From NCBI GenBank assembly GCA_963575745.1, contig CAUYUJ010020560.1:479826-543825 (forward strand): a stretch of DNA of 64,000 nt, written 5' to 3'. Below the pieces are notes generated by a model. That model saw nothing but the letters and a program-made list of their open reading frames with translations. It had not been told where the DNA came from and searched no databases. Origin of the DNA: Prorocentrum cordatum (taxonomy: Eukaryota > Sar > Dinophyceae > Prorocentrales > Prorocentraceae). Position 1 is the stretch's first letter; every line of letters starts with the position of its first letter. The translations under genes and the position numbers were made by a program. Of the stretch, positions 38,600 through 57,387 are shown one piece after another.

Positions 38600-38697
38600 G
38601 GAGGCCTCCCCCGGAGACACAGACAACTTCTTCTGAGAAGTCCCGCCGCCTCCTGAGAAGACCTTCTCCTTCTCGCTTGCCCCCCTAGCTCGCTGAC
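38600..38697. repeat. Introner-like element family B, partial copy
   Basis: AACTTCTTCTGAGAAG, CCTCCTGAGAAGACCTTCTC and CTTCTCGCTTGCCC then TAGCTCGC match one half of the methyltransferase intron 1 element. Confidence 0.65.
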
Positions 38698-38719
38698 GGG
38701 CCTGCTTTCCACCACCACC

Positions 38720-38990
38720 ACCACCACCATAAGCTGGAGGGGGAGGGGGTCCTCCTGCTCCTCCTGCTCCTCCTCCTCCACCTCCTCGAACTCCTCCAAC
38801 CTCCGCCTCCACCTCCTCCACCTCCTCCTCCACCTCCACCACCTCCACCTCCTCCTCCTCCTCCCTCCTCCTCCTCCTCCCTCCTCCTCCTCTCCTCCCC
38901 TCCTCCTCCTCCTCCCCTCCTCCTCCTGCTCCTCCTCCTCCTCCTCCTCCTCCTCCTTCCCACTCCCCTCCTCCTCCTCCTCCCCCCTCC
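38720..38990. repeat. (TCC)n with (ACC)n and (CTC)n variants
   Basis: Pyrimidine-rich on the plus strand, opening with ACCACCACCACCACCACC and CACCTCCACC mixtures before pure TCC. Confidence 0.95.
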
Positions 38991-39169
38991 AAACCCCTGG
39001 TGGTGGCGGTGGCAAACACAAGCCCGTCGCTCGCCGCCGCGCCGGCGGCCGGCCCCCGCGCGCCGAGGGCGCGGGCGGGGCGCGGCCGGAGCCCCGCGGC
39101 GGGCGACAGCGCGCCGGCGAGGGCGGGCCGGGCCCCGGCCCAAGGGCGCGGGTGCGCACCCGGGAGGGT
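38991..39169. other. GC-rich spacer
   Basis: GCGCGCCGAGGGCGCGGGCG-type GC tracts; no feature. Confidence 0.3.
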
Positions 39170-44304: not shown

Positions 44305-46455
44305 TCATCGCCCACCCCCTCCGCCTCCTCCTCCTCCTCCTCCTCCTCCTCCTCCTCCTCCTCCTCCTCCTCCTCCTCCTCCTCCCTCCGTCCCTCCCCT
44401 CCTCCCCTCCTCCCCTCCTCCTCCTCCCTCCTCCCTCCTCCTCCTCCCTCCTCCTCCTCCTCCGCCTCCTCCTCTATCTCCTCTCCTCCTCTCCTCCTCC
44501 TCTCCTCCTCCTCCTCCTCTCCCTCTCTCCTTCCCCTCCTCCTCTCCTCCTCTCCTCCTCCTGCTCTCCTCCTCCTCCTCCTCCGCCTCCTCCTCCCCTC
44601 CTCCTCCTCCTCCTCCTCTCCCTCCTCCTCCTCCTCCTCCTCCTCCTCCTCCTCCTCTCCTCCTCCCTCCACCCCCTCCTCCTCCTCCTCCTCCTCCTCC
44701 TCCTCCTCCTCCTCCTCCTCCTCCTCCTCCTCTTCTTCTTTATTATTGTTGTCTGATTCGTATTATTCTTAGTCGTCTTCTTATCTTCTTCTTACAACTA
44801 TTATTCTTATTAATATTATTAGTACGACTCTCCCTCTTTTTCCTCTCCTCCTCTTTTCCTTCTTCCTCTTCTTCCTCCTCTCCCTCTCCTTCCCCCTCCT
44901 CCTCCTCCATCCTCCCTCCTCCCTCTCCTCCTCCCTCCTCCCTCCTCCCTCCGCCCTCCGCCCTCCTCCCTCCCTCCCTCCTCCTCCCTCCTCCTCCTCC
45001 TCCTCCTCCTCTTCCTCACTCCTCCACCTCCTCCTCCTCCTCCTCCTCCGCCCTCTCCTCCTCCTCCTCCTCCTGCTCCGCCTCCTCCTCTCCTCCTCCT
45101 CTCCTCCTCCACCTCCTCTCCCCTCCCTTCCGCCCTCCTCTCCTCCTCCTCCTCCTCCCGCTCCTCATCCTCCTCCTCCTCCTCCACCCCCTCCACCCCC
45201 TCCTCCTCCTCCTCCTCCTCCTCCTCCTCCTCCGCCTCCTCCTCCTCCTCCTCCTCCTCCTCCTCTTCGTCTTCTTCTTATGTTTCGTATTAGTATTAGT
45301 GTTCTTCCTCTTATTCCCCTTTTTCCTCTTCGTCCTCTTATTTATTTTCTTTCTCTTCTGTCTCTTCCTCCTCCTCCTCCTCCTCCTCCTCCTCCTGCTC
45401 TCCTGCTCCTCTCTCTTCCCTCCTCCCTCCTCCCTCATCCCTCCTTCCTCCTCCCTCCTCCTCCTCCTCCTCCTCCCTCCTCCCCCGCCCCCGCCCTCGC
45501 CCCCTCGCACGGCCACGAGTGCGGCATCTTCGGCGCTCAGGACCGCCCTGGGACGCGCCGCCCCGCGCCGTGCCCCCTCCTCGGGATCCTCCGACTAACT
45601 TTTTGCCCCCCTCTTTTTTGCGACTGCCCCTGTCGCTCTGCATTCTGCCCATTCAGTCCTCCTCCTCCTCGTCCTCCTCTCCCCTCCATCCCTCCTCCCC
45701 TCCCCCTCCTCCTCCCCCACCTCCTCCTCCTCCTCCTCCTCCTCCTCCCTCCTCCTCCTCCTCCTCCTCCCCCTCCTCCCCTCCTACTCTTCCTCCTCCT
45801 CCTCCTCCTCCCTCCTCTCCTCCTCCTCTCCTCCTCCTCCTCCTCCTCCTCTCTCCCTCATCCTTTTCCTCCTCCTTTCCCCTCCTGCGCCTCCGCCCTC
45901 CCCTCCTCCTCCTCCTCCTCCTCCTCCTCCTCCTCCTCCTCTCCTCCTCCTCCCCCTCCTCCCCCTCCTCCCCCTCCTCCCCTCCTCCTCTCCTCCCTCC
46001 TCCCTCCTCCCTCCACCCTCCGCCTCCTCCTCTTCCTCCTCCTCCTCCTCCTCCTCTCCCTCCTCCTCCTCTCCTCCTCCTCCTCCTCCTCCTCCTCCTC
46101 CTCCTCCTCCTCCTCCTCTCCTCCTCCTCCTCCCTCCTCCTCCTCCTCTCCTCCTCCCCCTCATCCTCCCGCTCCTCCTCTCCTCCTCCTCCCTCCTCCT
46201 CCGCCGCCCTCCTCCTCCTCCTCCTCCTCTCCTTCTCCTCCCCTCTCCCTCCTCCTCCTTCTCCTCCTCCCCCTCCGCCCTCCTCCCTCCTCCCCCTCCT
46301 CCTCCTCCTCCTCCTCCTCCTCCTCCTCCTCTCCTCCTCCTCCTCCTCCTCCTGCTGCTCCTCCTCCTCCTCTTCTCCTGCTCCTGCTGCTCTGCTCCTG
46401 CTCCTCTCCTCCTCCTCCTCCTCCTCCTCCTCCTCCTCCTCCTCCTCCTCCTCTT
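44305..46455. repeat. 2.1-kb polypyrimidine (TCC)n tract
   Basis: The plus strand is overwhelmingly C and T with TCC, TCCC and TCCTCTCC units. Two AT-richer islands (44735-44825 with TATTATTATT-type triplets; 45270-45360) and one mixed island with CGGCCACGAGTGCGG (45505-45650) interrupt it. It could form intramolecular triplex (H-DNA). Frames of several hundred codons across it (Pro, Leu, Ser or Arg, Glu, Gly runs) are artefacts. Confidence 0.97.
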
Positions 46456-49574: not shown

Positions 49575-49741
49575 TTGACGGGTCGATTTACCACCTCCAC
49601 TACCATGGGAAGCAGGAGGAGGAGGAAGAAGAGGAAGACGAGGAGGGGGACGAGGAGGAGGAGGAGGAGGAAGAATACCTCCAAATTCTCCCTTCTCCCC
49701 CGTCCTATCTATGGAATGTGTGGTGGAAGTTTTGCCCATCG
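49575..49741. mobile_element. TIR element family W with (GGA)n core, copy 1
   Basis: The left end TTGACGGGTCGATTTACCAC then CTCCACTACCATGGG is an imperfect inverted repeat of the right end CTATGGAATGTGTGGTGGAA then GTTTTGCCCATC. A GGA/GAAGAGG core lies between. Total length is about 167 bp. Confidence 0.7.
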
Positions 49742-50395
49742 TATTGGGCCCCGCCCGAGATCCATCCGGACTTTTCGTTCGAGGAAGGATTCCAGCCGTG
49801 GCGACGCGGAGCCTCGGGGGGGTGCCCAGAGAGGACGAGAGAAACGCCATGGGGGCCGACGCGGCTACCCACTCGAAGGGTCTAACCCCGCACGAGGGAA
49901 GACAGGTAGGAAGGACCAGCAAGGGGCACCCCGACGGCCAAGAGTGATGGGTCGATTCTGCACCGCCACTACCTCAGGTGGAAAAGGGAGGAGGAGGAGG
50001 AGGAGGAGGAGGAGGAGGAGGAGGAGGAGGAGGGGAGGAGGAGGGGAGGAAAGGAGGAGGAGGAGGAGGAGGGGAAGGAGGAGGAGGAGGAGTAGGAGGA
50101 GGAGGAGAAGGAGGAGGAGGAGGAGGAGGCGGAGGAGGAGGAGAGGGAGGAGAGGGAGGAGAGGGAGGAGAGGGAGGAGGAGGAGGATGAAGAGGTTGAG
50201 GAGGAGGAGCAGGAGGAGCAGGAGGAGGAGGAGGAGAAGCAGGAGAGGGAGGAGAGGGAGAGGAGAGGGAGGAGAGGGAGGAGAGGGAGGAGAGGGAGGA
50301 GAAGGAGGAGGAGGAGGAGGAGGCTAGACTAGACCTAAAGAACTCACGCGCGGGACCCCTCAGGATCCCTCCCTGAGCGTAGGCTGAGACTGGGT

Positions 50396-51472
50396 TTAAC
50401 CCCAGCCTCCGCCCACGCCGACCTTGTAGACGAAGTCCCACAAGGCAATGCCGGCCTCCGCGACGGCCCCGATCACGAGCCGCCTCCAGTGCCTGATCGC
50501 CTTCACGAACTTCTTGCGCTTCTGGAACATTACGAAAGCCTCGGGCCCCGACACGTACGCGAGGCCGCTCCCAAGGCTGATGTCCTTCGCGACCTGTTTG
50601 CCCTTCACCTCCATCTGCTCGCCTGCGCCCGCGTCTCCACTGGCCTCCTCGGTGTTGGGCACGCCGAGCCAGGCGCTGGCAACGTGCGTCCGCGCTCTCC
50701 ACCAGGCCGCCCCCGCGACTGCAGCGCCACGCTGAAGTTCAGCATGGCCTTCCGGATGCGCTGGCGGCGGCAGCTTCCCATTGCCTGCAGCACCACCCGC
50801 GTCTGCCTTCCAACCCCTTTCACGGGGAGCGCCAGGCTCAGCCCTGTCTGCCGTGGCCAAGGGCCCACAGCCGAGCCCTTCCAGCACCGCCCCAGCGACA
50901 TCCACACAGGACGGCAGGCGGGCCGGCTGGCCCCAAGCCCAAGACGGCCCCGGGATGTACGGCGTCGCGGTTGAGCGCAGGGGCGTGCGCCGCGAAAGCG
51001 CCGCTGCTGGTAGAAGCACTGCTGGCTCCTCCTCGCAGACCTCCGCCACGCACACCTGCACGGCGCTCTCCGAATGCACTTGCGGGCCCAAGCGAGGCCC
51101 GCGCCTCGCCGCCCGCAGCTGGCGGTCGTCGGCGATCGACACGTCGAGCCCGCCCACCGCCGCGTGCAGCGCGACATCCCTGCGCAGCTTCTGCGTGGAC
51201 GTGGGCTGCATCCCGCGCAGGAGGGCGGCGAGGGCGGGGGCCACGGCCGCCAGCCGCCTGCCCACCTCGCCATCGGCCACCGCCTCCAGCAACGCCGAAT
51301 GCAGCGCTCGTGCCTCCGCCAGCTCCGAACGCAGCCGAGCTGCGTCCGCCAGCGCCGCACCGAGCCCGCGGTCCACAGCAGCCACTGCACGCCGCCTGGC
51401 AGCGGAGCGCTCCGCGCGCGAGCGCCGCTGCCCCGCCTTGGAATCGCCGCGCGGCGACTCCGCCCGTGCCAT
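50396..51472 (-). CDS. SL-tagged intronless gene (retrogene), unknown function, 358 residues
   Basis: The ATG lies 34 nt downstream of a complete spliced-leader sequence, fixing strand and start. The frame runs without interruption to a TAA. Residues 1-30 are Arg/Ala-rich. Residues about 38-88 are a probable amphipathic helix or coiled coil (LRSELAEARALHSALLEAV, RLAAVAPALAALLRGM). The middle is Pro/Ala/Gly-rich. The last 60 residues are basic and aromatic (GPEAFVMFQKRKKFVKAIRH, then WRRLVIGAVAEAGIALWDF), perhaps one membrane segment. No family is recognised. About 70 nt of 3' sequence precede the (GGA)n border, and no poly(A) remains. Lack of introns, the leader and insertion into a W element identify a reverse-transcribed mRNA. 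Whether it is expressed is unknown, but the intact frame argues against long decay. Confidence 0.7.
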   Translation of the reverse strand: MARAESPRGDSKAGQRRSRAERSAARRRAVAAVDRGLGAALADAARLRSELAEARALHSALLEAVADGEVGRRLAAVAPALAALLRGMQPTSTQKLRRDVALHAAVGGLDVSIADDRQLRAARRGPRLGPQVHSESAVQVCVAEVCEEEPAVLLPAAALSRRTPLRSTATPYIPGPSWAWGQPARLPSCVDVAGAVLEGLGCGPLATADRAEPGAPRERGWKADAGGAAGNGKLPPPAHPEGHAELQRGAAVAGAAWWRARTHVASAWLGVPNTEEASGDAGAGEQMEVKGKQVAKDISLGSGLAYVSGPEAFVMFQKRKKFVKAIRHWRRLVIGAVAEAGIALWDFVYKVGVGGGWG

Positions 51473-51506
51473 TTTCTCGAGCCCGCCCGCCCGCGCCCGA
51501 GGCTGG

Positions 51507-51528
51507 CTTGAGCCAAAATGGCTACGGA
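51507..51528 (-). other. Dinoflagellate spliced-leader (DinoSL) relic
   Basis: All 22 positions match the published DinoSL consensus, with T at the variable first base; the 3' part reads GCCATTTTGGCTCAAG. It is followed not by a GT donor, as an SL RNA gene would be, but by CCAGCCTCGGGC and then an ATG. It is therefore a leader copied from mature mRNA rather than an SL gene. Its 5' end abuts the (GGA)n array exactly. Confidence 0.95.
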
Positions 51529-51626
51529 GGAGGAGGAGGAGGAGGAGGAGGAGGAGGAAAGGGAGGAGGAGCTCCCCGTCCCCGACCTACCCGTGGTAGT
51601 GGTGGCAACAAGGTGCCCCATCAGAG

Positions 51627-57079: not shown

Positions 57080-57387
57080 GTTGATGGGCGAATTTTCACC
57101 ACCGCTACCATAGGTAGGACAAGGACGGAGTCCTTCTCCGCCTCCTCCTCCTCTTCCTCCTCTTCCTCCTCCTACTGCTCCTCCTCCATCTGGTCCTCCT
57201 CCTCCTCCTCGTCCTCGTCCTCCTCCTCCTCCATCTGGTCCTCCTCCTCCTCCTCCTCCTCCTCTTCCTCCTCCTCCATCTCCTCCTCCTCCTCCTCCTC
57301 CTCCTCCTCCTCCTCCTCCTCCTCCTCCCTCCTCCTCCCCTCTCTCCTACGCCTATGGTAGTGGTGGTGGCAAATCGGCCCATCAAC
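57080..57387. mobile_element. TIR element family W with (TCC)n core, copy 3
   Basis: GTTGATGGGCGAATTTTCAC then CACCGCTACCATAGGTAGGA on the left is mirrored by TCCTACGCCTATGGTAGTGG then TGGTGGCAAATCGGCCCATC on the right. About 210 bp of TCC repeats with ATCTGG interruptions lie between. It is the most complete W copy. Being just 5' of the methyltransferase start, it may contribute its 5' UTR, trans-splice acceptor or promoter. Confidence 0.82.

Follow-up and report, generated by a model that had tools for sequence, protein, structure and literature searches.

In a 64,000-nt stretch of Prorocentrum cordatum DNA (the window, that is, the whole stretch analysed), a W element that was already present probably received, within its (TCC)n core, the reverse-transcribed copy of an SL-capped RNA from a multicopy ORF family; the enzyme was most likely that of a non-LTR retrotransposon (LINE) of the L005 kind. 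We assign this reading a probability of about 0.72. The evidence for it consists of the layout of the locus, a genome-wide excess of such neighbourhoods, a LINE with the same layout and with both endonuclease and reverse transcriptase domains, shared 3' ends, and a tail hairpin. The presence of mRNA-derived copies and of a candidate LINE in TCC/GGA repeats suggests both the landing site and the machinery.

On the minus strand, the locus reads W end, (TCC)n, intact DinoSL, 34-nt leader, 358-codon ORF, 74-nt trailer, (TCC)n and W end. A preliminary description of this DNA had proposed this layout, and every part was located in the order it gave:

51595..51623, + strand: W terminal inverted repeat, upstream half (outer end TGATGGG/CCCATCA)
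51526..51571, - strand: (TCC)n array immediately 5' of the SL (reading GGA on the + strand; TRF)
51507..51528, - strand: complete DinoSL (0 mismatches), which forms the 5' end of the retroposed unit
51473..51506, - strand: 34-nt leader, common to other family copies
50396..51472, - strand: intact 358-codon ORF without Pfam domain (relatives annotated in Prorocentrum cordatum)
50376..50419, - strand: tail hairpin 1, 18 pairs, overlapping the stop codon (ends set by hand from alignment columns)
50352..50369, - strand: tail hairpin 2, 7 pairs (ends set by hand from alignment columns)
50322..50335, - strand: 3' terminal motif GGTCTAGTCTAGCC
49987..50321, - strand: (TCC)n array immediately 3' of the unit (reading GGA on the + strand; TRF array 49987-50323)
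49945..49973, - strand: W terminal inverted repeat, downstream half (ends in CCCATCA like the upstream half)

The exact DinoSL (TCCGTAGCCATTTTGGCTCAAG) lies at 51528-51507 (-), so that the 22-nt leader reported earlier was recovered with 0 mismatches. It was the sole match in the window at ≤3 mismatches (21-nt core; 0 in 100 shuffles) and also at ≤6 mismatches (22-mer). TRF detected the array on both sides of the unit, as had been described, and the trailer, previously put at ~70 nt, measured 74 nt, the shared unit ending at 50322 with GGTCTAGTCTAGCC. With a DinoSL directly upstream of its coding sequence, the window unit carries the 5' mark of a DinoSL retrogene. The longest TCC-type array in the window, a 2.1-kb CCT array at 44318-46453, had no SL inside.

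The 358-aa ORF gave no Pfam hit; thus, no endonuclease or reverse transcriptase domain was recognised in it. Four protein relatives were found, two of them named Prorocentrum cordatum, and one (P0001) had the same length and the same ends as the ORF of family copy L018. The dN/dS values were 0.53-0.77 for the window ORF against five copies and reached 1.03 among the copies themselves, indicating that the ORF is under weak constraint at most. Copies L010 and L013 carried net frameshifts. In view of the weak dN/dS and these frameshifts, we do not claim the label "functional gene" for the ORF.

To the list above we add three uninterrupted elements in the window for comparison:

57082..57385, + strand: W element with TCC core
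49575..49742, - strand: W element with short TCC core
38695..39028, + strand: diverged W-like element, likewise with a TCC core (ends approximate, judged by eye)

Against the W element at 57082-57385, the left half aligned over 48 columns and the right half over 35, each with a score of 21. The two halves matched its two different ends in the correct order, and the top 24 places listed for each half (window 60-mers, 10-base steps) were W or W-like copies throughout. The terminal repeat halves noted earlier around the unit therefore both match one W element, and the statement that they have no other partner holds within the window, the range checked. The W motif occurred 462 times genome-wide and the reversed motif 0 times; three of four fetched motif places held full W elements, 154-188 bp long and with a core of TCC, and the fourth had no clear partner end. 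Because the copies have a TCC core and the two halves match in order, W is a TIR family with an array core, and the SL unit lies within that core. This family is genome-wide, and with its terminal inverted repeats and many copies it has the features of a MITE. Inverted-repeat scoring of raw 150-bp array flanks gave a clear signal for two W copies and overlooked the split W. By eye, a 3-bp CTC was present on both outer sides of the split W, which could be a target-site duplication; none was clear at two other W copies.

The best reading is that W is a bystander whose core offered a landing site for the SL unit. Capture of the gene by W (Pack-TIR type), instead of landing of the gene in W, would also place the unit between W ends; it is nevertheless very improbable, since both boundaries of the unit, the SL and the family 3' end, fall inside the array, and a general comparison of the other copies' flanks revealed no common neighbour beside the arrays. 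W resembles the MITEs and introner elements of P. cordatum, as presented in passages of PMC10666404, in having short inverted repeats and in being too short itself to encode a transposase. It differs from them in its TCC core and in being merely a landing site, and no intron status is claimed for it.

TCC and GGA arrays proved to be strongly preferred neighbours of SLs throughout the genome. In the 4.13-Gb assembly (21,875 contigs), the DinoSL core had 14,218 exact copies, and the reversed control had 0. Within 30 nt upstream, (TCC)3 was present at 2,789 of 7,017 reverse-strand copies, versus 302 of 7,017 at the background distance of 400-430 nt; the array enrichment beside SL relics that the preliminary description had anticipated was thus borne out. 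(GGA)3 occurred within the same 30 nt at 1,021 of 7,017 copies, so that sense exceeded antisense repeats by 2.7 to 1 (the two sets may overlap slightly). Reverse counts alone were used because forward gapped patterns score several starts per SL.

An unselected sample gave a similar picture; it took the leading 48 entries from a list of 100 SL places and, coming from contigs 1 to 32, was a non-random draw. At a 15% threshold, 34 of 48 SLs had TCC (23) or GGA (11) upstream; at a 30% threshold, the numbers were 22 and 10. In the 60 nt downstream of the SL, TCC/GGA repeats were found at 0 of the 48 loci, and random 60-mers from the same loci had TCC in 4.3% and GGA in 3.3%. TRF placed a repeat within 12 nt of the SL at 40 of 47 loci, with a TRF coverage of the loci of 13.2%; L070, which has only 16 nt upstream, was scored as a miss among the 48 and left out of the 47. 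These 40 repeats were TCC-type (23), GGA-type (11), or of six other kinds (AT, TCA, CACATA, GACACA and two minisatellites), and in the remaining seven loci no repeat adjoined the SL. These findings demonstrate that the landing bias toward TCC/GGA repeats is real and large.

A host mRNA might have been recycled by unspecific machinery and have persisted in arrays because they are harmless sites. In keeping with such a plain retrogene, arrays are common in this genome, and L060, a WD40 gene by Pfam, has an SL without an array; however, a background of 4-13% cannot yield 54-85%, and LINE copies are placed likewise, which makes this explanation improbable. (L008, with an array, contained a KOW motif just above the Pfam cut-off; Pfam hits among the 50 SL-downstream frames were few because many frames were cut at 1.5 kb.) We also give little credence to growth of the arrays after insertion, by slippage from the initial TCC of the SL and from a pyrimidine 3' end. 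The ends would be compatible with an array, as TCC begins the SL and the LINE continues into CTC, but GGA arrays precede 1,021 of 7,017 SLs, W elements have TCC cores without any SL unit, and AT, TCA and other repeats also reach SLs.

The candidate for the machinery is L005, the fifth SL listed, which continues through L079 and L081 as one open frame of 1,869 aa, counted from inside the SL. Pfam recognised Exo_endo_phos (7.8e-7) and RVT_1 (5e-16) in L079; L005/L079 thus has the endonuclease and reverse transcriptase domains of an APE-type LINE, and its sequence matched R2 and L1 ORF2 chains in PDB. TCC arrays stand at both ends of this LINE, which enters (TCC)13 34 nt past its stop; its 3' tail differs from that of the window unit. 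A search with its last 201 nt gave 73 candidates, of which 40 were scored as matches, and every one of these extended to the final base of the query. The 20 best matches after L005 itself all stopped at the same place (20/20). Fifteen of these 3' ends lay in TCC, some of it short or imperfect, one met TCC after 10 nt, three were in degenerate pyrimidine-rich sequence (two with the same flank) and one was in (ATC)n; GGA followed at 0 of the 20 examined. At the 5' ends, 11 predicted full-length places were read: an SL was present at nine and no SL at two. TCC stood directly upstream of seven SLs and some 13 nt away from another, and one 5' end had a damaged SL and no adjoining array. The L005 family thus shows the same repeat kind and the fixed orientation of a microsatellite-specific LINE. 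For L047, another listed SL, the 3' end, placed by distance, also lay in TCC.

Several results weigh against the LINE account. Reverse transcriptase was confirmed by Pfam in only one LINE, L005. Of the 30 unselected SLs with an upstream array, 27 had no downstream array within 1.5 kb, and three had one in the same orientation. Distant ORF relatives lie outside TCC, and the seven of 47 SLs without an adjoining repeat and the difference between the L005 and window tails also speak against it. By eye, L045, L049, L062, L071, L072 and L073 were LINE-like at the cut end of the frame, and Pfam gave no supporting hit for any of them. L045 lies behind GGA, and GGA runs again at +2.9 kb; L072 had broken frames and no TCC/GGA run of four units in 6.5 kb downstream.

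A ~130-bp direct repeat was observed outside both TCC arrays of the L005 LINE (upstream of L005, downstream of L081); it may be a tandem unit, a SINE-like repeat or a long duplication. At L091, the 3' end of a LINE is succeeded inside the same array by another SL-like unit; arrays can therefore hold elements in series.

A DNA search with the window unit gave 53 matches, window included, and no intron-containing parent was recognised among these copies and fragments. Seven other copies were 93-98% identical across most of the unit. A sense TCC array was located 5' of all 15 copies of the window and sister subfamilies (L009, the window's own, to L021, L023 and L038; the SL of L011 is decayed). 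Thirteen more distant ORF relatives (L022, L024, L026-L036) had, by eye, no 5' TCC array: seven (L026-L028, L030-L033) follow a 20-nt minisatellite, two of them with the same flank, no SL was seen at L034, and the remainder adjoin other sequence. The unselected SL loci L074 and L077 were dropped as ORF relatives, as their blastp E values were only 0.018 and 0.056.

At the 3' end, GGTCTAGTCTAGCC or a variant ran directly into TCC at each of the 25 loci where this end was read (25/25), and a single junction phase was found across them. These loci comprised 15 read first and ten newly fetched ones, picked by the GGTCTAGTCTAGCC motif and not by TCC; a search with this motif gave 25 places. The TCC run after the motif was imperfect at L111 and L113. 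At L105 (190-519), two family tails stand in tandem, the inner one being followed by the second tail and not by TCC. The ten new loci had 66-140 nt of tail in common with L018 or the window unit, and most carried other bodies in the 400 nt upstream, where no LINE was recognised. Because the tail is shared and most bodies differ, the family looks modular, with an SL leader, a variable ORF and a common tail. The outer flanks of the 15 copies (3' flank for 14) were unrelated, apart from three upstream pieces (L009/L012, L009/L013 and the TCC-rich L013/L018); short TCC runs were in common downstream.

The unit had been described as a recycled-mRNA retrogene. Its SL-tagged nature stands, but it is no one-off, since 25 retroposed loci share a TCC-abutting 3' end. 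The best reading is a non-autonomous retroelement or retrogene that bears an SL tag and was copied in trans by a LINE targeting microsatellites, and we infer that a LINE of the L005 class acted on it. Spread at the DNA level is unlikely. A (TCC)n-flanked unit excised or copied by recombination between arrays, and then re-entering other arrays, would account for the single 3' phase at the 25 loci examined, for the predominance of 5' phase 0 in the window family (7 of 13) and for the constant orientation within families. However, the repeat beside similar SL leaders varies (TCC, GGA, AT or GACACA) or is absent, one of the LINE copies has its 3' end in (ATC)n, and L016 and L018 each have an SL plus a second SL relic, which requires RNA cycles. 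In L016/L037 (C9100:6752-7978), ~180 bp interrupts a family copy, as an intron, an introner or another insertion.

The window tail folded better than 200 of 200 shuffles (z -4.25), and the L010 tail gave z -4.09 with a slice shifted by 12 nt and missing the final bases. In an alignment of 22 tails, for which L025, L105 and L111 were set aside from the 25, 91.7% of hairpin cells were paired. Ten cells were changed on both sides, a number above that in 500 shuffles, and the covariation score was reached by 0 of 500 shuffles; the double changes were confined to two hairpin pairs, 324 of 500 shuffles reached as many, and 477 of 500 equalled the alignment in further pair types. RNAalifold's own consensus contained two pairs with double changes. 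Covariation support for the predicted tail structure is moderate at best. The L005 3' hairpin alone was not significant (z -1.55; 20 of 200 shuffles).

Integration into the microsatellite, as suggested in the preliminary description, is supported as regards landing in the array; pairing between SL and array is unnecessary, because SLs also adjoin GGA, AT, TCA, CACATA and GACACA and because junction phases are mixed. The 23 unselected TCC cases fell into phases of 9, 6 and 2, with 6 unclassed, and with these numbers a junction microhomology rule was not adopted. Target-primed retroposition by LINE machinery explains the locus better, because the (TCC)n-SL...(TCC)n arrangement recurs in a LINE that encodes both an endonuclease and a reverse transcriptase. 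The LINE endonuclease would nick the GGA strand inside the microsatellite, the RNA 3' end would be used for priming on that strand, and the cDNA would be extended up to the trans-spliced SL cap, whose end would then be joined to the other side of the array. The unit would thereby come to lie in sense with the pyrimidine strand. The LINE would copy its own SL-capped RNA and, in trans, others. From the one (ATC)n case and the mixed repeats beside similar leaders, we argue that the array is target rather than cargo. The constant 3' phase would be expected equally if the RNA end paired with the nicked strand and if the array edge was inherited.

Tentatively, the array may also be an expression device, although we consider this rather doubtful. 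Re-splicing removes the first seven SL nucleotides, according to passages of PMC12014239; (TCC)n and the SL's own CCGTAG may therefore act together as a ready-made acceptor for trans-splicing, in which a polypyrimidine tract is followed by AG. A sense unit behind TCC could be transcribed, lose the first seven SL nucleotides, regain a full SL and land again, and TCC as landing pad and splice signal would sustain a self-renewing cycle for LINEs and host-like ORFs. If so, transcripts should carry SL + CCATTTTGGCTCAAG when their unit is preceded by TCC and lack it when the unit is preceded by GGA.

Target-specific non-LTR retrotransposons were reportedly the subject of a study by Kojima and Fujiwara in 2004. 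Microsatellite-specific ones exist, and the target-specific clades named in the relevant passages of PMC4640811 are R1 and Tx1 with APE, and HERO and NeSL-related with RLE. L005 resembles these elements in its APE endonuclease and reverse transcriptase, its insertion in a simple repeat and its fixed orientation (PMC4640811, as far as those passages go); it differs in its dinoflagellate host, its TCC/GGA target and the trans-spliced SL at its 5' end. Genome-encoded DinoSL retrogenes of dinoflagellates are already known (PMC6050394, in part). As in the passages of PMC6050394 and PMC12014239 on these retrogenes, our units have a genomic DinoSL 5' of an intronless ORF, and some copies have a double SL; here, in contrast, a large share lies beside microsatellites, and at least one is a LINE. 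Those passages name no landing site and refer to a retrotransposon reverse transcriptase in general terms. We found no report of SL copies in microsatellites or of SL-tagged LINEs in the literature searched (subscription papers and preprints lay outside the search), nor, in that literature, the joining of microsatellite-specific LINEs with DinoSL retrogenes at the scale of thousands of SL copies that is presented here.

Genomic DinoSL copies have so far been counted as recycled host mRNAs. If many of them are LINEs or LINE riders, retrogene counts and the bursts inferred from them need revision. The retroposition machinery of dinoflagellates becomes testable as a target-specific LINE, and microsatellites, abundant in the huge genomes of these organisms, would gain a role as an insertion platform.

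SL-leader families share merely the SL and 47-110 nt, L005/L047 excepted. In the groups L003/L068/L073, L006/L048, L028/L061/L070, L020/L041 and L057/L059/L063, the sequences diverge after this shared stretch, and it looks as if different bodies reuse one 5' module. The trypanosomatid LINE/SINE-like elements with a 5' 77-nt Pr77, as described in passages of PMC8190864, likewise combine different bodies with a short shared 5' module, which differs from the module here, an SL plus a leader of 47-110 nt. SL units were also observed in a 20-nt minisatellite of the ACACAGGAGCACGGCAGA type (L026-L028, L030-L033, L042, L061 and L080), sometimes two within about 2 kb.
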